A stretch of 64,000 nt of DNA, from contig NZ_CP029343.1 of assembly GCF_003143515.1 (NCBI RefSeq), positions 3,596,001 through 3,660,000 of the forward strand. Direction: 5' to 3'. Each line of letters begins with the position of its first letter. Position 1 is the stretch's first letter. This document shows, piece by piece, positions 30,434 to 53,860 of the stretch. This stretch comes from Massilia oculi. Its GTDB lineage: Bacteria; Pseudomonadota; Gammaproteobacteria; Burkholderiales; Burkholderiaceae_D. The position numbers and the translations under genes are program-made. The notes under the pieces are model-generated. The model searched no databases. It was not told where the DNA came from and worked only from the letters and a program-made list of their open reading frames with translations.

Positions 30434-30434
30434 G

Positions 30435-34222: not shown

Positions 34223-34387
34223 ATGCAGAACGCAACTGTTCCCATTCTCACCGGCTTGGCGCCGGTTCTCGACGCAAGCGTGCGCATCCTTGTCTTGGGC
34301 AGCTTTCCGGGTGCGGCCTCGCTAGCTGCGGGCCAGTACTATGCCCATCCGCTTATGCGTGACGAGGTTTGTTCACTGTGTATGTAA
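34223..34387 (+). pseudogene. 5' part of host DNA glycosylase gene, split by the element
   Basis: Codons 1-43 ([16 protein letters not shown] to the G-S-F-P-G motif and AAGQYYAHP) are the N-terminus of a uracil/deoxyinosine-DNA glycosylase. After the His-Pro codons the sequence leaves homology at the ATCCGC core, and the frame stops 11 codons into the element (TAA 34385-34387). The matching C-terminal part resumes at 53854. Joined, they give about 168 residues, the normal length. GSFPG is the active-site water-activating region of this uracil-glycosylase superfamily branch. The truncated product would be inactive. Confidence 0.9.
34347..34375. other. left end: core attL and terminal inverted repeat
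   Basis: Core ATCCGC (34347-34352) is followed by the left inverted repeat starting TTATG and ending TTGTTCA (34353-34375). A nearby subterminal inverted pair ACTGTGTA (34375-34382) / TACACAGT (34429-34436) and a further TGTTCA (34455) are candidate recombinase arm sites. Confidence 0.75.
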
Positions 34388-34506
34388 AACGGGTCTAGAA
34401 CCAACATGGAGTGAGGCTTTAACTCATTTACACAGTTAGAATCTGGAGACGAAGTGTTCATTTCGCACTTTGCTCCATCTAACTTACTACAAGCGAAGTC
34501 GTCCCT

Positions 34507-34983
34507 ATGCTAGTTGGCTTGCCTCCCGTTCTTGATCTGCAAACACGTATTGTTATCCTTGGAAGTTTTCCTGGTGAGGCGTCCCTTTCGGCAAAGCGAT
34601 ACTATGCCCATCCTAGGAATCAGTTCTGGCGGCTTATGTCTGCAGTGACGAATGAACCTCTCGCAGATATGGATTACGAAGAGCGATTGGCTCGCTTGCT
34701 TGCTCACCGGATCGGCTTGTGGGACACCATCGCTGCTTGCGAACGTGAAGGAAGCTTGGACGCTGCCATTCGTCAGGCACAGGCCAACGAATTTGGCGTT
34801 TTGCTACGGCACAGCCCACATCTTTTCCGCGTCTGCTTCAACGGTAAGACCTCCGGCAAATCCGAACAACGCTTTTGCATGGCAGGGTTCGAAACCCTCG
34901 TATTGCCCTCATCATCGCCAGCGTACGCTCATATGTCTTTCGAAGATAAACTGGCTGTCTGGAAGAAGATCGTAGACTCATAG
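34507..34983 (+). CDS. element-borne uracil/deoxyinosine-DNA glycosylase replacing the split host gene
   Basis: 158 residues, complete, same family as the split host gene: VLDLQTRIVILGSFPGEASLSAKRYYAHPRNQFWRLM, then HRIGLWDTI, VCFNGKTSGK and VLPSSSPAYA. Members resembling TIGR04274 remove hypoxanthine (deaminated adenine) from DNA. It lies 120 nt inside the left end in the same direction as the host gene, so it could be read from the host promoter. Codon use is more AT-rich than the host version. At the homologous insertion point it reads CCCATCCTAGG, so the ATCCGC core is destroyed by synonymous changes. It evidently makes good the loss of the chromosomal enzyme. Confidence 0.9.
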   Translation: MLVGLPPVLDLQTRIVILGSFPGEASLSAKRYYAHPRNQFWRLMSAVTNEPLADMDYEERLARLLAHRIGLWDTIAACEREGSLDAAIRQAQANEFGVLLRHSPHLFRVCFNGKTSGKSEQRFCMAGFETLVLPSSSPAYAHMSFEDKLAVWKKIVDS

Positions 34984-35391
34984 CGGTAGCAGCGGGGGCG
35001 GTTCTCGGAGGACTATCCTCGCACCGGACGACGGCGCGACTCGCACTGCAGGATACTGCCCGCCTTGAGACGCTGCGTTCCGCCTCTGTTCGCCTCGCGC
35101 GTAGTTCGTAGCTTTACTAACGACGAGATCGCAATACAATAAGTGAACGTCACCTAAGGGTAGAGGCGGCAACGCATGCTGGTTCCTGAAACGTCAATCT
35201 CGGCTTTCTTGATAAATTGAACCATTACCCAGGCCTATATGTGTACATGCCCTGCTGCTGCAGACCGAGATATCTGGGAGCTTAGGTGCACTAGTTATCG
35301 GAAGATTAACTCCATTTTCGCTTTAGTAGTGAAACAGTAATATTATAAGTCCCATCATTTACGTTAGGCCATCCAATCGTACCGAATAAAA
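34984..35391. other. intergenic inside element, no gene seen
   Basis: About 400 bp between the glycosylase and the next gene. No RNA or protein gene recognised. The second half (35200-35390) is AT-rich and probably contains the promoter of the following gene. Confidence 0.4.
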
Positions 35392-36393
35392 ATGAAGAAT
35401 CACTTGCCTGACCAGTTCCAATTTAGTCACCAATACTGCTTCTTTTTGCACGATCAGTTGGTAAGCCTCTTAAAGGGGGGCGAAGCGGCGGATATTTTTT
35501 CGCATGAATGGAAGGTTGTGGAAGGGGAAGCTCACCCTCCTTTGAACTTATCAGGGGAGGAACTATTTCAATGGTTGGAGAGAAACAACAAGAAGGACGT
35601 GGTTTTTTCCCTCTACTACAAACAAATTTGCGCCGCGCTAGTTTCGGACATGCTGAACTTTGTCTACGAGGCACTATCTTGCTCTGCAAAAGGAAAGCTG
35701 ACCGTCGCTTTTGCACTACTTCGAAAGCCACTCAAGGAAAATCTGTTTTTTCTGGAATGGTTATTGGCGAGGCCTAGTGAAATGTTGGCTGCGTTTGATG
35801 GTGATTATGAGCATAAGTCGATCAACAAGCGATTTTCTGATTCTGAGAAAAAGCAAATAATTAAAGAGGCAGCGGAGAATTCTCATGCAGGTGAATGGCT
35901 TCCGGCTGAGCTGATTTACGACGTCAGATACAATAAGAACTTCTCGATAGGGTTCGAGGCATTATTTCAAAAGGCAAATCATCTAGTAACGTCATTTCGA
36001 TTTCTTGAGACCGAGCGAGCAAACTTAAATTTCGTTTTCTCTGATGAGGATGCATGGCAGTCACAGTGGGAGGGGTTATATTCTTTTCTGCCAATCATGC
36101 TTTTCCACACAGTTCAGATTGTGAAGTCGATTATAGGAAATTTTTCTCGATTTACTGAGCAGCGAGATTTGGATCCGGTTCGCGCGCTTATTGGTCTTGC
36201 ACTTTGGTTCCAACACCGACCTACGCCAATTGAGGCCCGACCAATTTTAGAATCAATAGCGGAGGCATTATTGGAGATCACATGCCCACAATGCGGGGGC
36301 GCATTAGATGCAAGTCACGCCGCGCTTGAAAGAATTTATATTGATAACGTGTTGTCTTGTAAAGAATGCACATGGTCCCATAGACCATATTAA
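35392..36393 (+). CDS. orphan cargo protein with C-terminal zinc ribbon, unknown
   Basis: 333 residues, AT-rich, mostly helical by composition, with a C-terminal CxxC pair (ITCPQCGGAL ... VLSCKECTWSH) that should bind one zinc. Central part: many aromatic and charged residues, e.g. KLTVAFALLRKPLKENLFFLEWLLARP. I recognise no named family. Proteins of this kind occur singly in defence islands. The ATG at 35392 lacks a clear ribosome site. Convergent with the PRTase-like gene. Confidence 0.65.
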   Translation: MKNHLPDQFQFSHQYCFFLHDQLVSLLKGGEAADIFSHEWKVVEGEAHPPLNLSGEELFQWLERNNKKDVVFSLYYKQICAALVSDMLNFVYEALSCSAKGKLTVAFALLRKPLKENLFFLEWLLARPSEMLAAFDGDYEHKSINKRFSDSEKKQIIKEAAENSHAGEWLPAELIYDVRYNKNFSIGFEALFQKANHLVTSFRFLETERANLNFVFSDEDAWQSQWEGLYSFLPIMLFHTVQIVKSIIGNFSRFTEQRDLDPVRALIGLALWFQHRPTPIEARPILESIAEALLEITCPQCGGALDASHAALERIYIDNVLSCKECTWSHRPY

Positions 36394-36513
36394 CTAAAAT
36401 CCCGTAGGCCGCGGATGCGCCTGACGAGGCCCCAAGCGTCCAATGTACGTGACTTATGGCAACGCATCGAGAGGACGGAGATTTGAAGTCAATCCAAGCG
36501 CGGCGCTACGATG

Positions 36514-38790
36514 TTAAGTAGAGGACCTAGTCTGGCGGTTTTGTTCCATTTCACTCATCAAGAACATTGCAATGATAGTAAAGTGATCTGCGATAGCCTT
36601 GTCGACGACGTTGGCAAGAAGTTCACGGGCGTGCTTCTGATGCAGCGTCAAGCGTCCAACCAACAGCGCAATCAAATATTCCATTAATGCATGACCTCCG
36701 CTTTCGCACGCGCCGGCAACTTCGCCGGACAGGAAGGCAAACATGCGTTCACTAACGATTTCGTCACAATTGCTGTATGCGATTTCGCCCTCTCGTGCAG
36801 CACGGAGAAAGGATGCCTGAATAACGCCGTCGCTAAACCTCTGAAAGCTCTCTGGCGAAATCACCGTTCGCTCGTATGTTCTGCAGACCAGCCTCGCCTT
36901 CTTCGGCACGCCCTGCCGATACTTATGAAACAGCGACGTTATGATTGCGAACGTGTCCGCTTGGCTAATAACGCGTCTACCATCGTAAGTCGGGATCATC
37001 GTGAAGTCAGCTGCGAGCTTTAACGTTACCCCTTGCGGCGAAGGCCAGAAGAGGTTGTTTTCCAGACCCACTCCGGGTGCAGTGCGCAGTAGCTCAATGC
37101 GCTCAGTGATAGCGACAGGCACGTCATGGTCTGCACAGGCGCACCAATATTCCAACTCTAGCAACCGTTCGTATTCGAGCTGCCAGCTGTGATTAGGTAC
37201 ACAGTGTGGTAGATCGAGAGAAACAACCGACAGCAGGTTAAACGTTTTAGGTCCCTGATCCCCGAAAGTAAGATTTGATTCGATGCGGCGACGCTCTGTC
37301 CCCGACGTAGCCCTGAAAATGGGGCTGACGTAAGTAATGCTGCCGCCTGGGTGAACAGTACGCAGGTCGCGACTAATACCCATCAACTCGTAGGTGTCGT
37401 CCATACAGCCCGAGAGCACCAAGGTGCCTGCTTCCCTCTCCTCGGGAACGGCTGAAAGAGCCATTGATGGCGTAACGATCGCCTGTTCCTGAAGATTGGA
37501 TGGGAGCGCCGCATAGGTTTGATCTGCGAAGGTTCTGGCACCAGGATAACTTGTTGGTACAACGCGACGTAAGTTCACGGTCGAGCCGCGACGGATCAGC
37601 CGAGAAAGTCTACTGCGAATATCCGCAACGCGTTCGCGGGCACTCTCTTCATCAGCCGTGCCTTCCAACATATTTTGCACATCGAGATAAAGTTCAAACT
37701 GCCGCGTGCCAACAGACCTGAATGCTCTGAACAATCCTGTACTGACCAGTCGATCTAACACGGACCTAGATGTCTCGTCGAAGTCATTGAGAGCCACTTC
37801 AATTTCTTCCACTTTTGCCGGTTCGGTACGAAACTGGTCTCCCACAATAGGAATCGCGTAGGAGTGACTGCTACATTCGGGACACTTAGCTCCCGGGTAA
37901 TTTTCAATTCGCGGTATTCCTTCGAAACTGTGCGCCGCGTCCGCACCCAAGTTACAGACCACAATGCCAGGCGTGGTAGAACCCAGGAAATACAAGGTGA
38001 AGATATTTTCCGCTTTTGCGCCTTTTTCGATAAGCTTTGAGGCCAAACTACCTGACGTGGAGGCTGAAACCAAAAAAACAGTATGCTCAGGATCGGACAC
38101 GGTAAGTGCGTCTAGGCCGCCATACGAAGCGTGCGATTCTATCATCGGAAGTGCATCGGCCTCTTGCCAACGGAGTCGCTCATACGCGAGTGCGTAAGCC
38201 ACTGGTGCGATACCGGACGTGTCGATGACGAGCCGATTGATAGTGCGGCCTTTGAGCAGTGGATACAGCCAGAAAAGGAGTTGGTGATTTGCTCCGCTCT
38301 TTTCGAGAACATTAGCTGCACGTAAAAATTGAGTTGAATGCGTACCGGACGGCTTCGTGAAATGCGTACCACGACCAGCAGTGACAAGGCCCCCGTTTCT
38401 TAAAAACAGATCAAATAAGGAAAAGCGCTGCTCCAAGACGTCAATGTTCGCGTCTGCCGGGCACATTCCCGTCAACGACTCGACCGAAACCTTCGAATGA
38501 TCCGTTGACCACGTAATCAGCGTAATGTGATCGATATCCTTGAGCATCGTCTGGAGGCGTATCCGTATCGCGGAATCTCTGGATAGGATTGCGCGCACCA
38601 TTGCTACGGCAACTGGCTGGCCGCTGATATGAATGCGGTCGTAAGGGCCGCCACTGGCCAGCCAAGGAACGATTGCCTCATCTAAGAGTTCCTCGCTGAA
38701 AGAAACCGGATGAAGAAAAACGGAGAGCACGTTGATCAAGCGGCCATCGGATCCTGCTCGAAGGTACGTCGAGATATTGAACACGCTCAT
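36514..38790 (-). CDS. phosphoribosyltransferase-like large protein, partner of a GHKL ATPase
   Basis: 758 residues. Residues about 125-285 resemble a type I, orotate-type phosphoribosyltransferase: G-T-H-F-T-K-P-S-G-T-H-S (141-152), RLVIDTSGIAPVAYALA, and the strand-loop VFLVSASTSGSLASKLIEKGAKA in the position of the PRPP loop. In that loop the two acidic residues of active enzymes are replaced by Ser-Ala, so the domain may bind rather than transfer. A CPEC motif follows at 303-306. The C-terminal 400 residues match nothing I know. Its ATG overlaps the stop of the GHKL gene. The pair is a candidate defence system; phage-nucleotide sensing or modification is a guess. Confidence 0.65.
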   Translation of the reverse strand: MSVFNISTYLRAGSDGRLINVLSVFLHPVSFSEELLDEAIVPWLASGGPYDRIHISGQPVAVAMVRAILSRDSAIRIRLQTMLKDIDHITLITWSTDHSKVSVESLTGMCPADANIDVLEQRFSLFDLFLRNGGLVTAGRGTHFTKPSGTHSTQFLRAANVLEKSGANHQLLFWLYPLLKGRTINRLVIDTSGIAPVAYALAYERLRWQEADALPMIESHASYGGLDALTVSDPEHTVFLVSASTSGSLASKLIEKGAKAENIFTLYFLGSTTPGIVVCNLGADAAHSFEGIPRIENYPGAKCPECSSHSYAIPIVGDQFRTEPAKVEEIEVALNDFDETSRSVLDRLVSTGLFRAFRSVGTRQFELYLDVQNMLEGTADEESARERVADIRSRLSRLIRRGSTVNLRRVVPTSYPGARTFADQTYAALPSNLQEQAIVTPSMALSAVPEEREAGTLVLSGCMDDTYELMGISRDLRTVHPGGSITYVSPIFRATSGTERRRIESNLTFGDQGPKTFNLLSVVSLDLPHCVPNHSWQLEYERLLELEYWCACADHDVPVAITERIELLRTAPGVGLENNLFWPSPQGVTLKLAADFTMIPTYDGRRVISQADTFAIITSLFHKYRQGVPKKARLVCRTYERTVISPESFQRFSDGVIQASFLRAAREGEIAYSNCDEIVSERMFAFLSGEVAGACESGGHALMEYLIALLVGRLTLHQKHARELLANVVDKAIADHFTIIAMFLMSEMEQNRQTRSST

Positions 38791-40052
38791 AAATTGTCAC
38801 CCAGCGGAATTAGAATCGACACATGTGCGCCTTGAATGTCTGGATACCCTTCCGTCATCTTTTGTGTAATTCCTCTACGCCAATCCATCATCCGCTCAGC
38901 CGGCGATGCGACATCGGTTTGTAGGAACATATTTCCGTACCATGCAAAATCCCGATACACATGCACGCGGTTAGTGCGTACGCGGATGAATCCCTTAAGC
39001 TCTTTCAGGTCGCGCAATACCTTCCATAAACCATACCCTCGGTTTTCGTCCCCAGTCGATGATCTTCCTGTGCTGAAACAGCCGAGCACGGCCTCGAATT
39101 GTTGCTGCGCGGAGGACCCGGCATATCCATCTTTAAGGTAGGTATAGGCAAACCCCGGGCCAGTGTCGAAGACGGAAATCTCGAGAAGGCCAAGGAAGTG
39201 GCGATCTGGCAGTGGAACTAGTCGAGTGTTTGGGGCTAGCGCCCGCGGTCTTGTAAAGTACGAAGCGTAGTTTTCGGCTTGGTTCAGCGTCGACGGAATG
39301 TCATTACCCTCGTCGTCTTTCACAGGCGCGGGCGCAGTATATGCAAGCTGTTCAGCTGTGTAGTAACGAGCGTACATCCCACGTATCGACAATAATAGTG
39401 GCTGCCTGTCCACGGTCGTACGTGCGTGGTCGTGCGTATTCTTGAAGAGCTCATGCAAAATCGTTGTCAGCCGTTCGCGATGATTTGTGATCGCGCCCCG
39501 AATGTTAGCCTCTGGCGTGACCGCCTTAATCATCTGATTTACGATGTGCTCGAACTGGTCGCGGCTGGCAACAAGTCGGTTTGGTGCCTGCGGATATAAC
39601 TGGGGCGGCAATCCGATCGCTGCAGGAATGTTGTCGAGACACAACAAAGAAGCTCGATCTTGCGCATTGAGGTCGGGCCACGAACGCTGACGCTTGAAAT
39701 AAGCGTCTTTGTAGCGAGCAAACGCGACCTTGGGAATTTCGGGCACCGCCTTTTCGTCGAGCAGGCCGAGCAGAGCCCCCGGCAGAGTATCGGAAATGCG
39801 CTTGAGGGCGTCAAGCGGGGCTTCTGCTATGCCTGGCTCAATACTTGTGCGACCGCCCAAGACACGCGTCCATGTACACAACCACTGCACGGTCGAGGCT
39901 TCCACAAGGAGTTTATGATCGTCGGCGCGAATACGATGCGAGTCAAACGCTAAAACGCGGTCCGCTGGCTCAATACGAGTATCAAGTAGCGCCTCCATGT
40001 CCTCCAAAGATGTCGGGAACGGATGCATATTGTAGCGGCCTTTAATTAGCAT
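38787..40052 (-). CDS. GHKL-type ATPase
   Basis: 421 residues (or 413 from ATG 40028; neither start has a strong ribosome site). The C-terminal half is a histidine-kinase/Hsp90-like ATPase domain: N-box ILHELFKNTHDHA (E201, N205), G1 box VFDTGPGFA (296-300), and G2 lid STGRSSTGDENRGYGLWKVL ending in G-Y-G-L. There is no phospho-acceptor His domain or receiver, so it is not a sensor kinase. The N-terminal 180 residues are unassigned. Its stop overlaps the start of the PRTase-like gene, which implies that the products act together. Confidence 0.8.
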   Translation of the reverse strand: MLIKGRYNMHPFPTSLEDMEALLDTRIEPADRVLAFDSHRIRADDHKLLVEASTVQWLCTWTRVLGGRTSIEPGIAEAPLDALKRISDTLPGALLGLLDEKAVPEIPKVAFARYKDAYFKRQRSWPDLNAQDRASLLCLDNIPAAIGLPPQLYPQAPNRLVASRDQFEHIVNQMIKAVTPEANIRGAITNHRERLTTILHELFKNTHDHARTTVDRQPLLLSIRGMYARYYTAEQLAYTAPAPVKDDEGNDIPSTLNQAENYASYFTRPRALAPNTRLVPLPDRHFLGLLEISVFDTGPGFAYTYLKDGYAGSSAQQQFEAVLGCFSTGRSSTGDENRGYGLWKVLRDLKELKGFIRVRTNRVHVYRDFAWYGNMFLQTDVASPAERMMDWRRGITQKMTEGYPDIQGAHVSILIPLGDNL

Positions 40053-40217
40053 TTGTGAAGGATGTTGATGAAGTATGGCAGAAAACCAGCCGGTTATTAA
40101 TCACACTTGGGCGATGCGTAGTTCTTTGGCGAATCCGTCGCGAGAGCTGAGCACGAACAAGACAAAGTTTAAATTGGATTAAAGATAACGACGACATATG
40201 GCCAAGGGATTAGGATG

Positions 40218-41258: not shown

Positions 41259-41260
41259 GA

Positions 41261-42127: not shown

Positions 42128-42221
42128 GCCACGCACGACTTGGTAAAGTTAGGTTTGCGCGTCCGGCTATGCGTACTGCGCTTCCTTTTCAGAGGACCAG
42201 AATCATCATCGGTGGCGATAC

Positions 42222-43616
42222 TCAACCACGCGAGCCGCCCTGGATGTCTTGCTCAAGTTCAGAAGTCTCGCGCCTGATGCGCCTTTTAAAGGCGCGGTTG
42301 ACCTGCACTTCGGTCAGACTCCCGACATTTTCCATTCCGTACAGGGCGAGCAATGCCCGCTGTTCGTCGATGGACGAGGTGTCGAAGTTAGGGATGTACC
42401 GATGCGTGAGGTTGCTACGCTTGGCTTCGTGAAAGCTCCGAACGAACGATTTCAGTTCGCCCTTGCTTGGCTCGAAGGCGAAGCGCTTGCACAGGACGTG
42501 GATCGTCTTGTCCAAGTTATGCAGCTGCGACACTGATTTGTCGTCAATTTGGGAGAAGTAGAAAACCCATCCGCGGCGAACTTCATCGAACAGGCAACCG
42601 GTGATGCGCAGGTTCAGACGCCACGTAAAAATTTTGCGAGCACGCTCTTGCAACAACTTGCGCGCGGCAGGATCCGGGTTGGCAATTGCTGATGCACGCC
42701 TGTACTTGTAGGTAGTGAAGATCTTTGCGAGGGAAGACTCCAGGCGACGAATCGAGTCGAGTTTGACCGACGCCAGCATATTCTTGAAATCGTACCCGAG
42801 AAAGTTGAAGTGATCCGTGATCTTGCCGGCCATCGACTTCCCCATCGTGTGCAAGGGATGCACGCTAAGACGATAGTCGTTCAGCAGGCATGCGCTGACA
42901 ACATTGAACAGCTCCTCGGGGTCGCCATTTGTCAAGATAAGGACGTCGTCAACATAGCGGAAGTACTTGACGTGATTAAGTTTTGAAGCCCACACGTCGA
43001 ACTTGGATAGATAGGCCTCGGCGAGGATATTCGAGATTGACAAGCCTTGGGGCACGCCCTTCGTTTCTTTGGCCTTGGAACGGTCGGGGTAGGCAACTGT
43101 CGGGTTCTCGATGGCCACGCGAATCAGATGGTGAATCTCTGCCTTGCGAATCTTACGCTTGAGTGCCGTTGTCAAGACATCATGATCGATGCTCGGATAA
43201 AAGTTGGTGACGTCGAGCTTGATCAAGTGGGTGTACATGCCACCAGCTAAAGCTTTGCGAAGTTCGGAGACCGTATGCTGCGGCAGCTTAACGTCCAGGT
43301 TTTCTTTGAACGTGTTTTTGAGGACGTTACATAGTGCGCGCAGCGTGATCCTATCGCGATAGGTCGGAATGGAAATCACCCGCGGGTATTTGTTGGCGCC
43401 CTTTGAGATCAGTTTTTCCTTGTACTGCGAGAACTTGTAGGAGCCGTCCGCAGCTTTCTTACTGATGAGATCGATTTCCCGCATGACGGTGAGTTCGAAA
43501 AGGTTCCGGCTGAGCCGGTCGACACCGATCGCACTCGTTAGGGAAATATAGTCTTCATACACACCGCGCAAGTTCTCGATTGTGAACTGCTGCGCAAAAT
43601 GCTTCGCCGCACTCAT
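42222..43616 (-). CDS. reverse transcriptase of the defence-associated (UG/DRT-like) kind
   Basis: 464 residues from the ATG overlapping the SLATT stop. RT motifs in order: fingers R-I-T-L-R-A-L, motif A LIKLDVTNFYPSID (134-144), motif B GVPQGLSISNILAE (187-200), motif C FRYVDDVLIL (219-228, Y-V-D-D), and a GYDFKN segment after it. A helical C-terminal extension of about 200 residues replaces the maturase/thumb-X region of group II introns, and no intron RNA or endonuclease domain is present. Fusion-free RTs of this size next to SLATT genes are known in the UG group of abortive-infection RTs. The subgroup number cannot be assigned by eye. Confidence 0.8.
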   Translation of the reverse strand: MSAAKHFAQQFTIENLRGVYEDYISLTSAIGVDRLSRNLFELTVMREIDLISKKAADGSYKFSQYKEKLISKGANKYPRVISIPTYRDRITLRALCNVLKNTFKENLDVKLPQHTVSELRKALAGGMYTHLIKLDVTNFYPSIDHDVLTTALKRKIRKAEIHHLIRVAIENPTVAYPDRSKAKETKGVPQGLSISNILAEAYLSKFDVWASKLNHVKYFRYVDDVLILTNGDPEELFNVVSACLLNDYRLSVHPLHTMGKSMAGKITDHFNFLGYDFKNMLASVKLDSIRRLESSLAKIFTTYKYRRASAIANPDPAARKLLQERARKIFTWRLNLRITGCLFDEVRRGWVFYFSQIDDKSVSQLHNLDKTIHVLCKRFAFEPSKGELKSFVRSFHEAKRSNLTHRYIPNFDTSSIDEQRALLALYGMENVGSLTEVQVNRAFKRRIRRETSELEQDIQGGSRG

Positions 43617-44209
43617 TTCAGATAAAACCAGAGGGCCGCGCCCGCCGGCGCAATATATAGTAGGGTCAACGCACAAAAGCGCCAGAGGCGCCACCAGTAG
43701 TACCGCACTACTTCACTGCGGAGCGGATGGCGCGAGCTTAAACCAGAGCCTGCGAGGATGCGGGCCCGGATATCATCTAACGTATTGTGGTTTTCAACCT
43801 CACGAAGCGCTTTTGCATACCGATCGGCCAACGCCGTGCAGGCTGAGCCAGCGACATTGGTTGTGGGATGGCTTTTCAAGGTAGCCAAGCAATTCTCGAC
43901 GTCTTGCAGCTCGTGATACCCCTGCTTGAAGCGGGCGGCACGGTCCTTGAATGCCTTGCTGTTGAGGTAAAGCGAGAGTGCCAAAAGAATGATCGACAAG
44001 ACGGCCATTGCGGTGTTAGCCAGATCCTCGTCCGCCTTCAGAGCAGGAGGAAATTTCAGCATGACGACCGACACGCACGTGGTATAGGCCGCGTAGACCA
44101 CCATCAAAAGCTGCGTGTGGTGTTCGTTTTGGAGAAATCGCTCTTCGGCATTGATCCAAGCCTTGCGCGTGAACCAAACTTTGTGGAACAGATGTTCAGG
44201 GATCGTCAA
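43613..44209 (-). CDS. SLATT-domain membrane protein
   Basis: 198 residues. Two TM segments (33-50 and 65-83) follow an N-terminal helix with HKVWFTRKAWINAEERFL. A cytosolic helical region (D-R-A-A-R-F-K-Q-G-Y-H-E-L) and a C-terminal hydrophobic segment (174-197) come after. This is the layout of SLATT proteins (SMODS/SLOG-associated 2TM effectors), of which the SLATT_5 branch is known next to reverse transcriptases. They are thought to open membrane pores on activation. Its stop codon overlaps the RT start (ATGA). First gene of the unit. Confidence 0.78.
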   Translation of the reverse strand: MTIPEHLFHKVWFTRKAWINAEERFLQNEHHTQLLMVVYAAYTTCVSVVMLKFPPALKADEDLANTAMAVLSIILLALSLYLNSKAFKDRAARFKQGYHELQDVENCLATLKSHPTTNVAGSACTALADRYAKALREVENHNTLDDIRARILAGSGLSSRHPLRSEVVRYYWWRLWRFCALTLLYIAPAGAALWFYLK

Positions 44210-44636: not shown

Positions 44637-45902
44637 ATGAGCGGAAAGCGGGACACAGAGGAATTCAAGATCGCAGCGGTCAAGCAAGTGGCAGAGCGTG
44701 GGCACTCGGCGAACGAAGTTGCTACTCGCCCGGGGGGCACGGAAAATACTTGCCCAACAGGTGATTCGGCCGACGAATGCTGGTTGTGCCCTCGTCCACT
44801 CATCGGCGAAAACGTCACTGGTGAGCATGTGATCCCGATGGCCATAGGTGGCCACAAGGAAGTTTCTAAGTTCATTTGCCGAACGTGCAATAGCGAGCGC
44901 GGTGCCAGATGGGAAGCTGAGGTCGCTCGGCAGTTCCTATGGTTCTCGAGCGCAGCGGCCGTAAAGCGCGGGCGCGGGGGAAAACACCCTGATCTCAAGG
45001 TCCAAACGGCAAGTGGAGAAAAGCTAAGACTGCAGTCCGATACGGTACTGGTTCCAGACGAGCCAGAGGTCAAAGTCAACGACCTAGGAAACAAGCTCGA
45101 GATCACCATTCGGACCAACAATCCGAAAACAGCTCGGAACCTGATCAACAGGGTTGCACGCGATCATCCAGGGTTCGACGTGCTCGGGGGCCTCCGTGAG
45201 ATGTCGACGGAGGACAGCTATCTTGATAGCCCGCTCGCGCTCTCGTTCAGATACGGTGGGCCGGAAGCTGGACGCTCGATGGTGAAGTCATGCTTGGCAC
45301 TGTTGTCCGAGACAGGCGCCAAGCCGAAAGACTGTGCCCGCGCATTGACGTACCTTGAAGACCCGAGTCCCGATGCGCTACCACCATTCTGGGTCTTCTT
45401 CGATGCAGACTTGATCACTAATAGGCCTCAGGATCATCTGTTCCACTGTGTGTCCGTGGTCGGCCAGCCCAAACATCGGCGAATACTTGGCTATGTAGAG
45501 TTCTTCAACTTTGCTCGCATCCTGGTTCTCATCGGGGAGGGCTACGAGGGTGAGGCATTCCAGGCGACATACGCAATCGATCCTGTAGATGCTCGTGTGG
45601 CGGACATCACCGTCGACTTTGATCGCGTCCCGCCGCGGCTAGACGACATCAGGATGCCCAAGGAACCGCCGCAGATGTTCCTTGACGCGTTCCAGACCAC
45701 GGGAAGAATTGTCAGTGCCATCAGTCGGGATCGGGTCAGAGCGCACGCGGTGTCGAAAGCAGCCACCGACGCATTGCGCGCTGTCGGCTTGGATCCTACC
45801 GCCGAGGATGTCCCAGCTGAGTTGAAAGACCAATGGTTGAACGAGTTCCTCGACCAGCTGAGGCCATACATCAGGTCCCAGCTGAAAAGAGCACCGGAGT
45901 AA
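44637..45902 (+). CDS. HNH endonuclease fused to an IS3 OrfA N-terminus
   Basis: 421 residues. The first about 33 (MSGKRDTEEFKIAAVKQVAE, then RGHSANEVATR) are the start of an IS3-family OrfA HTH protein. From about residue 45 an HNH domain follows: C48xxC51, GEHVIPMAIGG (H64) and C81xxC84-N85 in CRTCNSERGARWEAEVARQF. The 300-residue remainder is unassigned. The junction suggests that an IS3 insertion removed the native start and supplied its own ribosome site (AAGGAGGAGGT) and ATG. Fused HNH proteins of this type are probably restriction or abortive-infection nucleases. Confidence 0.7.
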   Translation: MSGKRDTEEFKIAAVKQVAERGHSANEVATRPGGTENTCPTGDSADECWLCPRPLIGENVTGEHVIPMAIGGHKEVSKFICRTCNSERGARWEAEVARQFLWFSSAAAVKRGRGGKHPDLKVQTASGEKLRLQSDTVLVPDEPEVKVNDLGNKLEITIRTNNPKTARNLINRVARDHPGFDVLGGLREMSTEDSYLDSPLALSFRYGGPEAGRSMVKSCLALLSETGAKPKDCARALTYLEDPSPDALPPFWVFFDADLITNRPQDHLFHCVSVVGQPKHRRILGYVEFFNFARILVLIGEGYEGEAFQATYAIDPVDARVADITVDFDRVPPRLDDIRMPKEPPQMFLDAFQTTGRIVSAISRDRVRAHAVSKAATDALRAVGLDPTAEDVPAELKDQWLNEFLDQLRPYIRSQLKRAPE

Positions 45903-46897: not shown

Positions 46898-46992
46898 AAG
46901 TACCTCCGCACAAAAGGTACGATGTACTCATAGCGAATACTTTAGGGCTACAATCTATAGTGTTCATTCCCGAGTTCCGGGCGGAGGGGCGT

Positions 46993-47430
46993 ATGATCAC
47001 GACGTATGCGGCGGATGAGGCAGCGATGTTCTCGCTTAGCCCTGGATTTGCGACCTGGCGTACCGCAACCCTCACTTCGGGAATGTTGTATGTTTTCGTC
47101 AACTACGGTCAGAAGGAGGGGCGTAGCTGGATTCACCAGACTTCGATCCTCTGGGACAGCCGCGATGTGCTAGATTTTTGCCTCCGTTTCAAAAATAATC
47201 GAGCCGCAAAAATCGTTGACATTTCTCTTCTGGAACCTTTTCGAAGAGATAAGGTTTATACGTGGCGCTGGAACAAAGTTCTGGAAATTCGCACCTACGA
47301 AGAGGATTCTGTAGAGCATCCCGTCTATATCACCGATGCTGGTGAAACAGTAGGGCTAACGCCAGAAGAGGCAAAACAAAAAATGAAGCTGATATACAAG
47401 GCCCGAGGTATTGGACCTAAGGCGCTGTGA
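46993..47430 (+). CDS. uncharacterised cargo protein divergent from the XRE regulator
   Basis: 145 residues starting at ATG 46993, chosen because GGAGGGG precedes it by about 6 nt (a GTG at 46960 has none). Mixed alpha/beta composition, several Trp and Tyr (YVFVNYGQKEGRSWIHQTSILWDSRD), no recognised domain. Placed between the defence cargo and the recombinase module, with a divergent regulator. Confidence 0.6.
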   Translation: MITTYAADEAAMFSLSPGFATWRTATLTSGMLYVFVNYGQKEGRSWIHQTSILWDSRDVLDFCLRFKNNRAAKIVDISLLEPFRRDKVYTWRWNKVLEIRTYEEDSVEHPVYITDAGETVGLTPEEAKQKMKLIYKARGIGPKAL

Positions 47431-47502
47431 GCCGCGAAACGAGCTGTGGTGCACGTGCACTGAATTCGCCAGTCTTCGAAACTTCTCTGTTTGAGCGGCT
47501 GC

Positions 47503-48066
47503 TCATGGCCGTTCTTTGCCGTTCCGTGTACGGCAACTGTCCGGCTCATGTTCTTCGGAACCAATGTTATCTATGACCAGCGTCGGTGCTTGGTGTAAGG
47601 GACGGCTACCGCGGTGCTGTTCACGCTGCAGTTTTTCAATTTTCTCCTTGACCGCACTTTCAAGCTTGTTCATGCGCACGCGCATCGCCGCGCAGGTGGA
47701 CAGGAGCTGCTTATTAACCTTTTCGAGCTGCCTGTTTCTCTCACGCAGCTTACTGTTGACGTTCTTCAGGTCGTATTCGCCTGGCTCTCCCTCTATTCCT
47801 TTCCGGATTTCTTCCCGAACCCTGGGATAGCGGCAGTTGTCGTGACCGATCAGAGTACGCGATAGCCCTCGCCAGATCCCTTTTTCATCTTGGCCACCGG
47901 CTTCCAGCGCGGCAGCACTCACATCGGCGCGCAGCTTGCCTGCCCTGGCTTTCTTCTGTAATTCCGGGCACAGCGGATTGCCTTCCCTCAGGCGCTCGAT
48001 TGCGTCCAGAAACCGTTTCTCCATGCCCTCATAGCTCGCGGGCAGATCCTTGCGCTTTCCCCGCAT
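47503..48066 (-). CDS. small coiled-coil recombination accessory protein (TnpC-like)
   Basis: 187 residues from the ATG at 48066, which follows AAGGAG; the frame to 48141 overlaps the recombinase. A basic N-terminal part (KRKDLPASYEGMEKRFLDAIERL) leads into a heptad-rich region NSKLRERNRQLEKVNKQLL to KLESAVKEKIEKLQREQ. Tn554 TnpC, a helical accessory protein, occupies the same position behind two tyrosine recombinases. Homology is judged from layout, not from a sequence match. Last gene of the recombinase operon. Confidence 0.65.
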   Translation of the reverse strand: MRGKRKDLPASYEGMEKRFLDAIERLREGNPLCPELQKKARAGKLRADVSAAALEAGGQDEKGIWRGLSRTLIGHDNCRYPRVREEIRKGIEGEPGEYDLKNVNSKLRERNRQLEKVNKQLLSTCAAMRVRMNKLESAVKEKIEKLQREQHRGSRPLHQAPTLVIDNIGSEEHEPDSCRTRNGKERP

Positions 48067-48076
48067 GACTTTCTCC

Positions 48077-50259
48077 TTACAGCACGATGTCCGGTAACGG
48101 CACATCCAGAAACTTGAGATAGGCCGCTGACTGTGCGGCACGTTCCTTGGCTACCCTGAAGTCGTCCGCGTTGCCCTGCGCTTTGGCCTGCAGGTAGGCT
48201 GCGTTGTTTGACACGTAGCGATCGCGCCAGAACTCCACCGATTCCGGCCCCACCATGAACAGAAAACACCCAGTGCAAACACTGGGCTCGCGGGTAGCGT
48301 AGTTGGGCGCCGTGTTAGCCCAGTGCACTGTCTGCGCCCGCTTATGGCACTCCGCTTCCGTTGGCGCCAGACCGGGGATACAGCCGCCATAGCCATGGAA
48401 GAACAGTTTCAGGCTGCGTTGCGAGCACCAAGCAAGCATGGCGTGCCTTGCTTCGATGTCGTTCTTGCCTTCGATGATGGTGCCCAACTCGCCCTGGTAT
48501 TTTTCGAGCAGTCTAGCTAGGCGTCCTTCCATCTTGGAAGCTGTTCCACGTGCGAACTCCAACAGCTTATCTGTAGTTCGGTATAGGTTATGCTCTGCAA
48601 CGTCTTTCAGCAGCGCATCATTCGTATTGATGTAGGCCCCTTCGGTCATGGCAATGCTAAGGTGCTTGAACTGCCGTGCTATGGCAGGCAACAGCTTTGG
48701 GTTCACCTGGAACACGAATTGGGCGTAGGTTTTGCGCCATTGGTGCGTGCGCAGCCACTCCCCCTTACTGTTGATGTAATTTTGCGTATCGGGAGTCGCT
48801 TTGACAGTGCTCCACTCGACATGAGCGGCAACGAATCGTTTCTGCCATTTCCGCAATATTGCATTGGTTAGGACTGATACTGTTTGGCCATTTTTAGGAA
48901 AGCCTTCGCCGCCTATATCAAACACCACGAACAGGGCTTCCCGCACTTTCTCTTCTGCCATGTCGCGGAAGGGTTGCAGCAGCTTTTGAATCACATCGAC
49001 CGCGCGCACCGAGTTGGGCAGCACGTCCGAGCCGCGTGGCCTCGCTGCCAACAACCAAGTTGCTGATTCAGGCGTGGGGCGCATTTTCGAAAGCGTGCCT
49101 CTTAGGTAAAACAGCTCCAGCATGCCTGACTTAGACGGCCGTATTTCAATACAGGCAGGCAAGCCGGTTTTGGGATTGATGCCTGATGGTAGGCTGCACA
49201 ATTCGTTGGCGCGCATGCCCGTCTCGGACTGCAGGATGATGGAGCAGGCTCGAGACATGTCGTCCACGAGCCGTCGCAAGGTTGCTACAGGCCTTACTTC
49301 GCCCAGCGGCGAATGCCACGGCTGGTCGCTTCCTGGCCGGAAGGAGAATTCCCAGTTCTTCATGTGCCTAGATGCAGTGTTACAGCTGTCATACGTGTCC
49401 CGCAATGTCCGCATGTCTTCAACCATGCGCAGAACATCGGGGGCAGCCGTTTCAATATACCCATGCGCGGCGTTCATGATAGCAACCGCCACTTCATCGG
49501 GAAGCGGTGGTATTTTCTGACTGGCCTTCGTCGCCATCTCCGTAGCTAAGCGGCCGATTTTCCGCCCGCCAAACGGCTCTTGGGGCACCGGATCGACCCC
49601 GGCGGCGCGCATGGCCGCGCGCTGGTCCCACATATAACGCCAGACCACCAACCGGGTCCGCACCCATCCCTCCGTCACTTGCAGAGCTTCATCCGTGTCC
49701 TGCGAGGTTTCCTCATTGTCCTTTCGACCTGTTATATCGATAGCTTCTAGTGCGTTCTCATCAAGCAGCTCTTCCAACAAATCTTCCTGGGCGACTCCGT
49801 CCAATTGCGCCTGGAAGGCGTCTAGGTAGCACTGCGAGGCCGCACCATCGAGTTCGCTCATCCGGGCATAGCGGTTTTTCACCATCCACCGGAGCAACTC
49901 ACGAAGTCCAACGCTTAAGGGACTAGCGCTGCCCGGTTTGAGCGTATTGCCAGTACGGGGGGCGGCGAACAGCGACCAGGCGAATCGGCGGAATTGTTCA
50001 AGCAAGTCGGCATGATAGGCGTCCAGCAAATTGGTTCCATCCTCACAGAGCATGTCCCAATCAATTGTTGAGCTATGAGGTACGGCTCCAGGCGTAGGAT
50101 TGTCCAGGAACCACGTGCGGTCCTGCCATCGGCTGGTTGAAGATACCCAAGGATTGGGACAGCCTTCGGTAGGATAGGCCGGCGTGCCGTTGCCTATCTT
50201 GCTTACTATTGCCTCGGTTGTATGCTCGCCCTGAAATATTTTTTCTGTGCTTTACCCAT
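48077..50259 (-). CDS. third tyrosine recombinase, needs a -1 shift in an A6 tract
   Basis: The catalytic part is in one frame (50238-48077 open): MRANELCSLP (catalytic R), THQWRKTYAQFV (H-x-x-R), FKHLSIAMTEGAYI (H and Y), and a C-terminal C-x-x-C (VCTGCFLFM). The only good start is ATG 50259 with GGAG 8 nt upstream, just behind the second recombinase. It reads MGKAQKK in another frame and meets a stop at codon 18. One extra A in the run at 50244-50239 joins it perfectly to IFQGEHTTEAIVSKIGNG. The joined product has about 727 residues. Otherwise translation must start at ATG 50053, losing about 70 conserved-looking residues. Confidence 0.75.
50239..50244 (-). other. A6 slippery tract at the frame change of recombinase 3
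   Basis: Minus-strand AAAAAA follows GCACAG and precedes TATTTC, at codons 6-7 of the gene. A gain of one A, or -1 slippage of ribosome or polymerase, restores the long frame. It could be a mutation, a sequencing error or a programmed site. Confidence 0.6.
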
Positions 50260-50264
50260 GAGGC

Positions 50265-52238
50265 TTACTCCAATGGAGGCAAGGGGGGGAGTTTCATTTG
50301 CCTGACCTGCTCAAGTACGTATTGGGGAAGCTGCGGAAGCCAGAATTTTGTCAGGGCTCTCCTAGATGGCCCGTATCGTTCAAGCCAGGCAACGGGAGCC
50401 ATGGTCTCAGCCGCCTTGTCGATGGCATCGAGCAGATTGAACGCTTGCGCGGCAGAGTAACAGTTGTCGGAGTTTATGCTTCCGAGCGGGCAGGCGGGGC
50501 AGCGCCCATAACCCCCACACAATTTATCCTTCTCGTACAATGGGCTGTCATATGGGTCGCTACAGGTCCAGCCTGGCGTGGCGGCACCGATATCCGCGCC
50601 TTCCGGCTTGCGGCGCGGGTCCGACTTACCCTGGGTCTGTCGAAAGCGCTCTCGCACCGTGGACAGTTGTGCGAGGGACTCATCACCTCGTTGCATCTGC
50701 GCATCGGTGGTATAGCGCTGGTAAGTGGTCTGCACTTCTGCATGGCCCGCGGCAGCCTGCTTTGCCCGTATGTCGCCGCCAAACTCGACGTCCACGATAT
50801 CTAACCCCGTTGGGCGGAACTGCCTGAAGGTATAGTATGTGAGACCGTGATCCCCGAAGAACGCTTTGTAAGCAAAGTCAAAGTTAGGGTCGCCTCCCGG
50901 ATCGGTCTTGCCGTCGAAGCCCTGCATCCTCTTATTTGCAGAGGTATAGCCAGTCACGTACAGGAACAACCGGTCTTGCCACTGCGGGGCCGACGTCGGC
51001 CGGAACCAACCCGTCCACTCCATCAGGAATTGCCAGATGAAGGCAGGATTGTCGGGTGCATCCTCTACAGGTAGGATTTTCTCCTGCAGCCGATAACGGG
51101 CACGTTTCTTTCTCGGCGCGCCCCTGAACAGTTTCTCGTCCCTCTTTTCCTCGACACTGTCCGCAGTATCCTCATCTTCAATAACGGACGAACATGCTTC
51201 AAATTCCGGCCTTCCCAATTTTCCGGTAACGAGTCGGTAATCGCTCATCTTGCTACCCATTAAGGTCGCCTTGTTGTATTCCAAGTGGATGGCCATCATT
51301 AAGACAAACGGCACTAAGTCCCTGACCGAGGGATAGAAGCAAGGGCTAATGTTGCTAATCCCTCGTTGGTTTACTGCCTCGGCTAAGGACCGATCGTTTA
51401 ACGCCTTGAGCCATTCGTAGGTAGGAATTTGTCGGGGATAGCGACGGTACAGTGTGGCCAGCAGTACGCCGAGATCCTTGTACGGATTACGAAAGGTGGC
51501 GGGTATGCCTTTACCATATACCGTTCTCTCAGCCGGTTCCGGTGCCAGTGCTGTTGGATGGTCTAGATTTTTATGTAACGCCGCGCGCAGTCCCCTGACG
51601 CGGACAGTGATTTCAATAATTTCTTCCTTGCAAGCATTATAGATTTTCTGGTAATCCTCAATATGAATAATGGGCGTAGACTTTACGTTCTCTTGTTGAC
51701 CAGCCCACATTCCCGGCCGGATCTCTAAGTCCGCAGCAAGCTGCGGAATCCACTTGTCGGATTTTTTCAGGTATTGAACCACTTTGCGAAAGTAGCCCAT
51801 CTTATGTCCACGGGTTTCAAGTGCGTAGATGGCCACGCCCTTCTTATTCCCTCGGTCGAGCCAGTTTTTAAACCCCTCGACATGTAACGTTGTCAGCTGC
51901 TCTAGCCTGATGTTGTTAAGTGATTTTTCTTCCAGGTAGGCGAAGAACCCCGTCTTTAGCTCGCGGCCCATTCTGTCGCAAGTCGCGTAAGCGAAAGCCT
52001 TGTTCTTGCAAATCTCCTGGGTGGCTTGCGCAAACGGCTCGGTCAGGTGAGGGAAGGTCAACAGGTACGAGAGATCAACCGCGCCCTCTTTTTTCTCACC
52101 TTCTTTGGGGCACATCAGCTTTATGTTGCCCGCGCTACGCACCAAGCGGTAGCGACGGGCTTTGTCCAGTGAGGTGGCGTCTCCCTCATTGGTCCGGTTT
52201 TTTCGCTTGTACGCATTGGAGCCGCGGGGGTTAGTCAT
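50265..52238 (-). CDS. second tyrosine recombinase (TnpB-like)
   Basis: 657 residues from the ATG at 52238, preceded by TTGGAGGTAACA and overlapping the end of recombinase 1. The C-terminal catalytic patches are recognisable but divergent: the box FRQFRPTGLDIV has R-x-x-R instead of H-x-x-R, and AAAGHAEVQTTYQRY supplies the second His and the nucleophile Tyr. A cysteine cluster (WTCSDPYDSPLYEKDKLCGGYGRCPACPLG) follows, probably a zinc site. Length and order correspond to Tn554 TnpB. Together with the other two it would form the integration/excision machinery. Confidence 0.8.
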   Translation of the reverse strand: MTNPRGSNAYKRKNRTNEGDATSLDKARRYRLVRSAGNIKLMCPKEGEKKEGAVDLSYLLTFPHLTEPFAQATQEICKNKAFAYATCDRMGRELKTGFFAYLEEKSLNNIRLEQLTTLHVEGFKNWLDRGNKKGVAIYALETRGHKMGYFRKVVQYLKKSDKWIPQLAADLEIRPGMWAGQQENVKSTPIIHIEDYQKIYNACKEEIIEITVRVRGLRAALHKNLDHPTALAPEPAERTVYGKGIPATFRNPYKDLGVLLATLYRRYPRQIPTYEWLKALNDRSLAEAVNQRGISNISPCFYPSVRDLVPFVLMMAIHLEYNKATLMGSKMSDYRLVTGKLGRPEFEACSSVIEDEDTADSVEEKRDEKLFRGAPRKKRARYRLQEKILPVEDAPDNPAFIWQFLMEWTGWFRPTSAPQWQDRLFLYVTGYTSANKRMQGFDGKTDPGGDPNFDFAYKAFFGDHGLTYYTFRQFRPTGLDIVDVEFGGDIRAKQAAAGHAEVQTTYQRYTTDAQMQRGDESLAQLSTVRERFRQTQGKSDPRRKPEGADIGAATPGWTCSDPYDSPLYEKDKLCGGYGRCPACPLGSINSDNCYSAAQAFNLLDAIDKAAETMAPVAWLERYGPSRRALTKFWLPQLPQYVLEQVRQMKLPPLPPLE

Positions 52239-53625
52239 TGTTACCTCCAATACGTTGTTTGGCTCGATAGGAGATCTTGCCAGCCCGCGCTTTTTCCTCA
52301 ACCGTCACCACCTTTAGGTAAATATCTCGGGTGGTTTCCACGCTGGAGTGCCCCAGCAGTTCTTTAATTAGCAGCCATGGCTCGAGGTTCCCGTTGCCCA
52401 CTTCATCGAAGTACTTCGTCACCGCGAAGGTGTGACGCAAATCGTGGTAGCAGTGCGCTGCGGCGCGACGAAGTACGCTCACTTTTGTCTCGCCCCCATC
52501 GTTGTCCTCTAGGGCATGAATTTCCTGCACAGTTTTCATCACGCCAGCGGCTTTGCATGCCTGACGGAAGGCATGGGACAGGGATGTTGGCTGTATAGCA
52601 TTCCCCGCATACTGCACGGGATAGGCGTGGTTCACGAAGAGAGAGTTGGGCTCCTTGTACTTCTTGCCATGGTTGGCTGAATAAGCCTTGCCAGCCGAAA
52701 CGGCTGCTTTCCGCTCTCCGTCAATGTAGCGGACCAACTCCGGAATGAGGTAGCACGGTATCAGGACGTTGCGAGGTTTGAGTCTTTTTGTTTTAGTGAT
52801 GTACAACTTGAGGCAGCCATACTCCCTGTCCTCTTCGCTCAAGAGCAAATAATCCGTGTTGAGCTTGAGGATATGATGCACTGTCAGGCTGGCCGCCTCA
52901 TCTACCCGCAAGCCGGTAGTCAAGGCAAGTTCGCAGGCAAGCCGGTCGCGAGACGAGCGAAGATTTTCTTCTGACTCGCTTGGCAGAAGTCCCAGTTCGC
53001 GCTGAATTGCGCGCCATTCGGCCGTGTTAAGGGGATGGACGACTCCTGTCTCGCCAATTTCTTCCGCATAAGGGGAAACTTCGTGCGTGGTGTCGCGACC
53101 AGCGCGCAAGTGCACCATGGCATCCCTGTCGGCTGGCCTGATGCGTCCTTTTTTGAACTCCGAGGTTTTCAAGAACGCGCCGACATACCAGTTCTGCTTT
53201 TGGGCCTCCTTATAGAAATTCTCAACGGTGCTTTGCCGACGCCGAATCGTGGAATGAGACAGGTATCGCCTGGTATGAGGACTCACGGCGTCCTGAAGCG
53301 CGTCGCGGTAGTCGATGTAGTCGTCTTCTGTGGCGGCGTCCCAGGCTTTGCCTACCTTACCGTTTTCATCACTTTCGTCTTCGCAAACCTCGAGAAAAGC
53401 GAACCAATCACGCAAGTCATAAGCGTACGCCTCAGCCGTATTTTTTTTCCAGCCGCGGCGGCCTTTACCCCTGACGAACTTCTCATGGAGATACAGCAGC
53501 ACATGCTCTTGGATCTCGATGCTTTCGTCGCTCTCTACCACTAGAAACGGAAAGCCTTCAGGCAAGGCAAACTTGAAGAGCGGGTCGTCCTTCGGTAGTT
53601 CGTTAGCCTTCCAGAGAGTGATCAT
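52231..53625 (-). CDS. first tyrosine recombinase / integrase (TnpA-like)
   Basis: 464 residues. A SAM-like N-terminal core-binding domain (KNTAEAYAYDLRDWFAFLE) is followed by the catalytic domain with all residues: R240 (TTGLRVDEAASL), K280 region, H394-x-x-R397 (YHDLRHTFA), H426 (LLGHSSVETT) and Y436. Located 230 nt from attR and read into the element, as expected for the first gene of an integration module. Overlaps recombinase 2 by 8 nt. Confidence 0.92.
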   Translation of the reverse strand: MITLWKANELPKDDPLFKFALPEGFPFLVVESDESIEIQEHVLLYLHEKFVRGKGRRGWKKNTAEAYAYDLRDWFAFLEVCEDESDENGKVGKAWDAATEDDYIDYRDALQDAVSPHTRRYLSHSTIRRRQSTVENFYKEAQKQNWYVGAFLKTSEFKKGRIRPADRDAMVHLRAGRDTTHEVSPYAEEIGETGVVHPLNTAEWRAIQRELGLLPSESEENLRSSRDRLACELALTTGLRVDEAASLTVHHILKLNTDYLLLSEEDREYGCLKLYITKTKRLKPRNVLIPCYLIPELVRYIDGERKAAVSAGKAYSANHGKKYKEPNSLFVNHAYPVQYAGNAIQPTSLSHAFRQACKAAGVMKTVQEIHALEDNDGGETKVSVLRRAAAHCYHDLRHTFAVTKYFDEVGNGNLEPWLLIKELLGHSSVETTRDIYLKVVTVEEKARAGKISYRAKQRIGGNND

Positions 53626-53860
53626 TTTGCCCCCGCGACCCCATCAATGTAGATGAACACGTTGATGGAAGAGAAGGTGCTCTGCACAAGAGTTTAGAGC
53701 GATTGGTGAACAAAGTTTCAGCTCTTCGATATCAACATTCGAAGACTGTTAAAGTAATGGCACTATCTGCACAATACAGGCTTTTCTGGCTGTAGAAGGA
53801 GAAAAAATTGCGACATTGGAGCAAGAGCAGCTGAACACTTTTCATCGCTCATAAATCCGC
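53626..53860. other. right end: recombinase promoter region, inverted repeat and attR
   Basis: Holds the right inverted repeat (53832-53854; complement starts TTATGAGCGA and ends TGTTCA) and the core ATCCGC (53855-53860). An internal inverted pair CTTCGA / TCGAAG (53724-53744) may be a recombinase site or operator. The promoter of the recombinase operon must lie here, reading leftward. Confidence 0.75.

Follow-up and report, generated by a model that had tools for sequence, protein, structure and literature searches.

A tyrosine-recombinase element of Massilia oculi splits a DNA-deoxyinosine glycosylase gene and carries a complete diverged orthologue that very probably compensates for the damage

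The DNA examined here, referred to as the window, is a stretch of 64,000 nucleotides (positions 3596001-3660000) of the single-contig, 5.84 Mb genome of Massilia oculi, in which an integrative element splits a DNA-deoxyinosine glycosylase gene and holds, just inside one of its ends, a complete second gene of the same family. The host gene starts at 34223, is broken at the codons for His-Pro-Arg-Asn, after Tyr-Tyr-Ala-His-Pro, and resumes at 53855. A 6-bp core, ATCCGC, is present in identical form at both junctions (34347-34352 and 53855-53860), and the element DNA, with one core copy counted as host, spans 34353-53854, that is, 19,502 bp. A first-pass annotation of this DNA had described an element that splits the gene between the His-Pro and Arg-Asn codons and an intact gene of the same family, in the same direction, inside its left end; the junctions agree with this description, the coordinates given there being within a few bases. 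The host and terminal features, with the inner gene, are as follows.

34211..34222, plus strand: putative native promoter remnant, TACAAT a few bases 5' of the host ATG (comparison of TANAAT boxes across genus loci)
34223..34352, plus strand: host glycosylase 5' part, ending in the core ATCCGC (TIGR04274 positions 1-33)
34347..34352, no strand: core ATCCGC at the end far from the recombinases (identical to 53855-53860)
34353..34376, plus strand: left terminus, TTATGCGTGACGAGG..., an imperfect inverted repeat of the right end (comparison of four left ends)
34507..34983, plus strand: replacement copy, a complete DNA-deoxyinosine glycosylase gene of 158 aa (TIGR04274, selection, codons, clade)
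53830..53854, minus strand: right terminus, adjoining the recombinases, ...CATCGCTCATAA (same in genome G036)
53855..53860, no strand: core ATCCGC at the recombinase end (G036 has these six bases too)
53855..54231, plus strand: host glycosylase 3' part (TIGR04274 positions 32-150)

Joined in silico, the two host halves encode 166 aa with no internal stop, and they align to adjacent parts of one family member, with a mean identity of 69.7% (range 52-75%) to the glycosylases at 30 genus loci, two of which (L021, L023) are solo element-type copies. Relatives with a continuous gene at this site were found, as the first-pass annotation had anticipated. The DNA upstream of the site is common to 29 of the 30 loci and the DNA downstream to 14. 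A TANAAT box, probably a -10 box, lies shortly 5' of the glycosylase start in 24 of them. The reading frame of the 5' stub runs on into the element and meets a stop at 34387.

The inner gene is a full-length match to TIGR04274 (172.9 bits against a curated cut-off of 80, positions 1-150 of 150), and the best relative of its protein in the PDB is 2L3F (E 1.1e-33). It begins 154 bp inside the left element end, in the same direction as the host gene, with its ATG 284 nt 3' of the host ATG, and has 52% G+C. A pattern scan between the two start codons, of a kind that misses the native promoter too, gave no terminator-like and no promoter-like site. As the native promoter and the stub are kept upstream and no terminator was found, the host promoter most likely drives transcription of the copy. 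Its first 15 nt (34507-34521), which had also served as the search key for collecting copies, are identical in all seven copies known from genomes, and the next eight in five of them, third codon positions included; this segment is possibly a protein-binding or regulatory site.

The copy was searched for in 392 genomes of the family, with G024 added from a separate comparison. Within the genus (62 genomes, own included), 50 genomes hold a native-type gene (47 from the family search, with G006, G017 and G055 from the locus comparison), seven hold this copy, one (G021) holds a version associated with a serine recombinase, three have only a glycosylase of another lineage, type B, and G025 is untyped. 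Relative to the window genome, G000, the copies are 95% (G036), 94% (G026 and G053), 89% (G024), 83% (G040) and 80% (G050) identical; the next-best matches, at no more than 72%, belong to other genera, and natives within the genus are 56-63% identical to the copy. The arrangement of a split gene with an inner copy is found again in other genomes and is thus not a matter of chance. Complete elements are present in G000 and in G036, Massilia rhizosphaerae NEAU-GH312 (Betaproteobacteria), where the recombinases are 78.5-83.5% identical to those of the window, and a genus-wide search with recB, one of the recombinase genes, at E 1e-20 gave a close recB only in these two. A scan of the genome contigs gave one locus. 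In G024 and G026 the element is eroded: the 5' stub, the left end and the copy are retained, no recombinase is present in the stretches read, and the 3' half in G026 is a remnant with a stop. The copy is found at the same place in all four genomes that retain the left end.

In the remaining three genomes, G040, G050 and G053, the copy stands solo and is the sole glycosylase match in the genome. It is preceded by a native-type promoter stretch, a short native-start stub and then the last bases of the element leader. In G040 and G050 the DNA upstream is similar to that found in relatives. There is no recombinase gene beside the solo copies in the stretches read, and the recB search found none in G040 and G053 and one distant partial match on another contig in G050; a recD match near the G053 copy (49 aa, 28%, E 0.001) was not counted. 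In G053, a stretch of 34 residues from the native 3' end (68% identical) remains about 2.3 kb past the copy, which is what loss of the element by deletion would leave; in G040 and G050 no native 3' piece occurs within about 20 kb. Separately, G008 has, alongside its native glycosylase gene, another one (L039:9391-9798, minus strand) that looks incomplete and shares 48.5% identity with the copy.

The 32 copy rows (seven from genomes and 25 from the protein database) of a 116-row tree form one clade with support 100/100, apart from all natives, and the host halves of the window and of G036 group with genus natives; the row hostjoin_G021, misframed and covering 26% of the columns, was disregarded. 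Among the best 120 matches in the protein database, the copy type accounts for 25 clusters (77-94% identity) plus one fragment of 128 aa (84%), and the next matches are at 73% or less. For recB, the database holds 31 full-length matches at 70% or more (own included) and five partial ones, and then two at 39-41%. The copy and the recombinases look like parts of one element family, with the reservation that their linkage is not visible from database records. The ratio of nonsynonymous to synonymous substitution rates (dN/dS) between copies is 0.083-0.150 (21 pairs among the seven copies, with dS up to 1.10), and its median among natives is 0.145 (66 pairs, 12 natives), which indicates that the copies are under purifying selection.

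Furthermore, the insertion site is recoded in the copy: the host reads CAT CCG CGC AAC CAG, and the window copy CAT CCT AGG AAT CAG. All seven copies encode the motif arginine by AGG or AGA, whereas AGR occurs at none of the 81 other arginines of the copies, all of them CGN; in natives, AGR is found at 0 of 28 motif arginines and 9 of 310 others. The chance of such a pattern would be 1.6e-10 if codons were exchangeable, a value that is overstated since the copies are related, and the safe reading is a single early change to AGR kept over a long divergence. Encoding the motif with other codons, the copy is probably not itself a target of the element.

The element is presumably moved by the products of a block of four genes, all on the minus strand and all at its right end.

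47503..48141, minus strand: recD, small fourth gene of the recombinase block (83.5% identical in G036)
48077..50053, minus strand: recC, large tyrosine recombinase with boxes TGMR, HQWR and KH...Y (motif scan)
50265..52301, minus strand: recB, tyrosine-recombinase-like, without the TGxR and HxxR boxes (motif scan)
52231..53625, minus strand: recA, tyrosine recombinase of 464 aa with boxes TGLR, HDLR and GH...Y (PF00589 E 3.1e-13; motif scan)

No Pfam match over the cut-off was obtained for recC, and those of recD are weak and all below it. The structure model of recB is poor (mean predicted local distance difference test score, pLDDT, 53.7), and Cre and Flp are among its first matches in the PDB, none of which has an E below 0.86; as the model is poor and the matches are not significant, the fold is not established, and recB is assigned as a putative recombinase from motif remnants. 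The left element end starts with TTATGCGTGACGAGG and the right end, read backwards, with TTATGAGCGATG; 15 of the first 22 bases match, a score that 2 of 20,000 pairs drawn at random from the element also reached. The four left ends are identical over their first 15 nt. At the recombinase end the core is ATCCGC in both the window and G036, and the corresponding far-end position reads ATCCGC in the window, AAGCAT in G036, TCCACA in G024 and ACCAAA in G026. The G+C content of the element is 52.8%, against 64-65% in the flanks.

Such features place the element near two described classes. Strand-biased circularizing integrative elements (SE; PMC10214605), with the gene order intA-tfp-intB-srap, likewise combine a catalytic recombinase, a degenerate recombinase-fold protein, a second catalytic recombinase and a small helper, and have imperfect terminal inverted repeats (15/22 in our case). 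They keep six target bases at the recombinase end and bring in six at the far end, and a corresponding asymmetry is seen here in the bases other than ATCCGC at three of the four far ends, the window having ATCCGC at both ends. On the other hand, SE are reported from Gammaproteobacteria alone in the parts of that paper considered, so the betaproteobacterial element of G036 falls outside this host range; the likeness is one of description, and a target copy is not mentioned in those parts. If the element behaves as SE do, its insertion would leave no empty site and could not be reversed to an intact gene, so that carrying a spare would be of even greater use. GInt elements (ginABCD; PMC5385486), which also occur in Betaproteobacteria (PMC10214605), resemble the element in having three recombinase-type genes and one small gene at one end, followed by cargo, and in being site-specific. 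Their degenerate gene is the third (ginC), and not the second as with recB. According to the parts of the GInt paper considered, it is the insertion position or an outward promoter, and not a replacement copy, that spares their target genes. They also have a short AT-rich end opposite the gin operon, a place that in the Massilia element holds the copy gene (52% G+C, against 53% in the whole element). We therefore describe the element as SE/GInt-like and assign it to neither class. A bare four-gene block resembling recA-recD, at 33-38% identity, is found in the conjugation region of the Methylomonas plasmid pUP202 (L181:7389-13131). A plasmid home of the element was considered and rejected, since recB gave 12 plasmid records and the copy 19, all under 60% identity. 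A phage home was rejected likewise, as none of 70 pattern-matching stretches in viral contigs encodes recB; the only glycosylase found in a viral contig (L121, 42%) has no recombinase in the part of the locus read.

The same glycosylase motif is occupied by elements of an unrelated recombinase class. The break in the native gene of G021 lies a few bases further along and is due to an element with a large serine recombinase (Resolvase PF00239 and Recombinase PF07508, with a zinc-ribbon match, PF13408, below the curated cut-off), and the recombinase gene is directly followed by a full glycosylase gene, 39.6% identical to the window copy. The layout is the same in G355 and in G433, where the 3' half lies on another contig; the recombinases of both are classed by identity alone, which is 59% for G355 as for G433. 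In G355 the attachment arms, as read from the two junctions, are palindromic about a centre of two bases within the asparagine codon. In contrast to the tyrosine element, the spares of these elements adjoin the recombinase gene and belong in the tree to the type-B lineage, with about 40% identity to the window copy; other genomes have type B as an ordinary resident gene. The copies of G021, G355 and G433 have no His-Pro motif, so that the site is missing rather than recoded. Serine-type scars, in which a GTCAAATTRACCA-like motif precedes the 3' piece, were found in G288, G201 and G265, and in G036 at a place outside the tyrosine element. In G288 a type-B copy comes after the 5' stub and the 3' half about 2 kb later, and no recombinase lies in this interval; the 3' piece of G265 could be assigned to neither type A nor type B. 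G036 has two glycosylase 3' halves in tandem (L034:1312-1677 and 3654-4022, minus strand), the outer one behind the serine-type scar, which suggests a nested history of two unrelated elements at one site.

Whether type-B genes standing singly are scars of serine elements was also considered. This found no support in the 24 sampled genomes, where no native-type remnant or scar motif was seen within the locus, with two loci giving weak other matches (20 aa; 70 aa at 26%) and L178, which fell outside the position filter, left untyped. The type-B gene at L157 (G278), 75% identical to the copy of the G355 serine element, may nevertheless be a solo copy of that element. G018, G030 and G045 (L041, L042, L043) have no native gene and a type-B glycosylase alone, in flanks that match few genus loci.

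A related recombinase was found with a second target gene. The recombinase of G346 is 55% identical to that of G021, has no glycosylase nearby, and belongs to an element that splits a spermidine-synthase-like gene, with residues 7-62 on one side and 58-261 on the other. Directly after the recombinase, on the opposite strand, lies a complete 261-aa homologue (PF01564), 81% identical to the 3' half. In G820 the recombinase is 85% and the copy 92% identical to those of G346, and the 3' half lies beside the recombinase; the 5' half was not found in the stretch read. Between the two copies, which differ from the host at synonymous bases around the site, dN/dS is 0.036 at a dS of 1.0.

L110:5213-7995, L111:9537-10148 and L196:8101-11314: serine-recombinase elements of G346/G820 in the spermidine-synthase-like gene

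The clade of G021-type recombinases is discrete, with 40 proteins at 54-100% identity among the best 120 matches and the following ones at 40% or less. For 16 more distant serine recombinases (L093-L108), comparison of the two 1.5 kb flanks with each other gave no homology, the upstream flank of L107 being 379 bases and partial-match flanks including recombinase sequence, and ten serine recombinases of viral contigs (32-39% identical) had no glycosylase in their loci. As further observations, the G021 element (L036:10315-13658) carries the Gabija pair GajA and GajB, and the window genome itself has a serine recombinase relative at 38% identity with one in-frame stop (G000:C1:375564-377231).

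In regard to the choice of this gene, a TIGR04274 match over the cut-off is present in 62 of 62 genus genomes. Endonuclease V is the other well-known deoxyinosine enzyme, and a search for it was positive in six of 14 control genomes and in none of the 62. Loss of the glycosylase thus appears not to be tolerated, as far as presence and absence can tell from a search that covered these two of the hypoxanthine-removing enzymes. The first-pass annotation had suggested that losing this repair is costly; both counts speak for it, and the cost itself is read from these counts alone.

The findings can be brought together as follows. The element, moved site-specifically by three proteins of tyrosine-recombinase type and one small protein, would insert into the codons of a conserved motif and destroy the chromosomal glycosylase gene, while supplying a full foreign glycosylase gene immediately within its terminus on the host-promoter side. 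The copy would be transcribed from the native promoter through the retained 5' stub, would be spared as a target by its recoded motif, and would keep the repair function, which would allow the element to reside in a gene that its hosts retain. Later, the element could erode or be deleted and the copy stay as a resident gene at the native promoter, a state that corresponds to the sequences of three genomes. That the carried orthologue compensates for the broken gene, as first proposed in the first-pass annotation, is very probable on the sequence evidence: solo copies at the native locus, purifying selection, recoding and the repetition of the design in unrelated serine-recombinase elements all support it. 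Glycosylase activity, expression, a benefit to the host and mobility would follow from this reading.

Several observations weigh against it. The seven copies are related, their codon counts are not independent, and one ancestral AGR would explain the present state, though it was kept across a dS of about 1. Two related recombinase blocks (G005, G027) lie at other sites without a target copy, and the three genus members with a type-B gene alone elsewhere imply that this exact orthologue is not indispensable.

Alternatively, the copy could serve the element: it might act as a decoy, confer immunity to a second insertion, or assist with repair during strand exchange, with gene replacement as a side effect. 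A recoded site would suit such a role, and the identical beginning of the seven copies might be a protein-binding site, although these nucleotides were also the search key. We consider this very unlikely given that solo copies persist without the element, that the copies are under purifying selection, and that the copy carried with a related serine recombinase, a spermidine-synthase-like gene, is not a DNA-repair gene. Less probable still is chance acquisition, in which the inner gene would be a repair gene carried like any other cargo and its kinship with the broken gene a coincidence. The copy sits at the same place in four left-end genomes though the cargo of the window and G036 is otherwise little alike, and it is the sole glycosylase match in the three solo genomes. 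Elements do carry varied cargo, here largely defence genes, and the 16 more distant serine recombinases and two related tyrosine blocks lack a target copy; chance was set aside because the same design recurs in three integrase-target pairs. The least probable explanation is a duplication or patchwork, with the second glycosylase gained by homologous recombination and the pieces left as rearrangement debris, since, even if the two 3' halves of G036 reveal that rearrangement does occur at the site, the termini are sharp and conserved with inverted repeats, a 6-bp core and recombinases at one end, and the copy belongs to another clade than the genus natives.

Compensation by a carried orthologue also has a counterpart among described elements. 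The first-pass annotation held the carriage of a whole orthologue to be unusual; the design is supported, while the idea is not wholly new. Tn552-II of Staphylococcus aureus (tnpABC), described in 2025, is likewise a transposon of the tyrosine-recombinase kind: it inserts in a gene, takes a 7-bp spacer along from the donor, and holds a target-gene-like gene, tgl, which according to its authors may provide a rescue mechanism (PMC12486829). It has a different set of recombinases, belongs to another phylum, targets CDS40 on a plasmid or a yolD-like gene, and has bla cargo. Its tgl still holds an internal att copy, whereas the site of the Massilia copy is recoded; no clade, selection or solo copies are given in the passages of that paper considered (PMC12486829). 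Apart from Tn552-II, no report of a replacement copy was found in a literature search that left out most subscription journals. Islands that rebuild tRNA genes also restore what they break, as far as described in the part of the Islander paper considered, and do so by sequence shared with the target; in our case a whole separate gene is brought and the broken gene stays broken (PMC4383910). As far as our searches show, the following are new within the literature covered: the use of one motif by two recombinase classes that are unrelated to each other, the recoding of the site, the measurement of selection, the copies left solo behind the native promoter, and the second target gene.

As unrelated serine elements occupy the same motif and a second target gene is involved, whole-gene replacement looks like a recurrent strategy. 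An element could in this way occupy a gene that hosts keep, by bringing the whole gene written as a non-target, and the solo copies suggest that a chromosomal gene can end up replaced by a foreign one at its native promoter, a concrete mechanism for xenologous gene displacement. The convergence of tyrosine and serine recombinases on one motif, together with the second target, offers a testable rule, that a full copy of the broken gene lies near the integrase. A lone resident gene may accordingly be the scar of an element, and a spare target gene could serve in integrase prospecting as a sign of sites where disruption is normally compensated. More generally, integrases that cut conserved genes may repeatedly evolve a module of integrase and full target spare, with the site recoded or absent, and such modules may serve as vehicles for replacing genes and, once the element is lost, leave foreign orthologues at native loci, a proposal for and against which we see the case as evenly balanced. 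If true, it could be a general way for bacteria to exchange core genes.

The remaining genes of the window element are cargo.

36514..40052, minus strand: two genes matching the candidate defence proteins PDC-M65B and PDC-M65A (PADLOC E 3.7e-94 and 1.5e-35)
42222..44209, minus strand: UG17-type reverse transcriptase and SLATT membrane protein (PADLOC RT_UG17 E 4.9e-153 and RTasSLATT E 2.4e-48; Pfam RVT_1 and SLATT_5)
44637..45902, plus strand: HNH-domain protein (PF14279 E 3.2e-11)

The G036 element carries MkoA, MkoB, a patatin-NUDIX protein, PD-Lambda-4, an Hcp gene and an amidase gene, and apart from the copy the two elements have little cargo in common.

In the host chromosome 5' of the element, an RND-type efflux pump gene followed by an outer-membrane-factor-like gene lies at 27254-31946 (by eye, from the list of open reading frames). 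A small gene pair, toxin-antitoxin-like by eye, is located at 33568-34133 on the minus strand, between an amylase-like gene and the glycosylase promoter; unlike in the window, the amylase-like gene is directly 5' of the glycosylase at L006 and L032.

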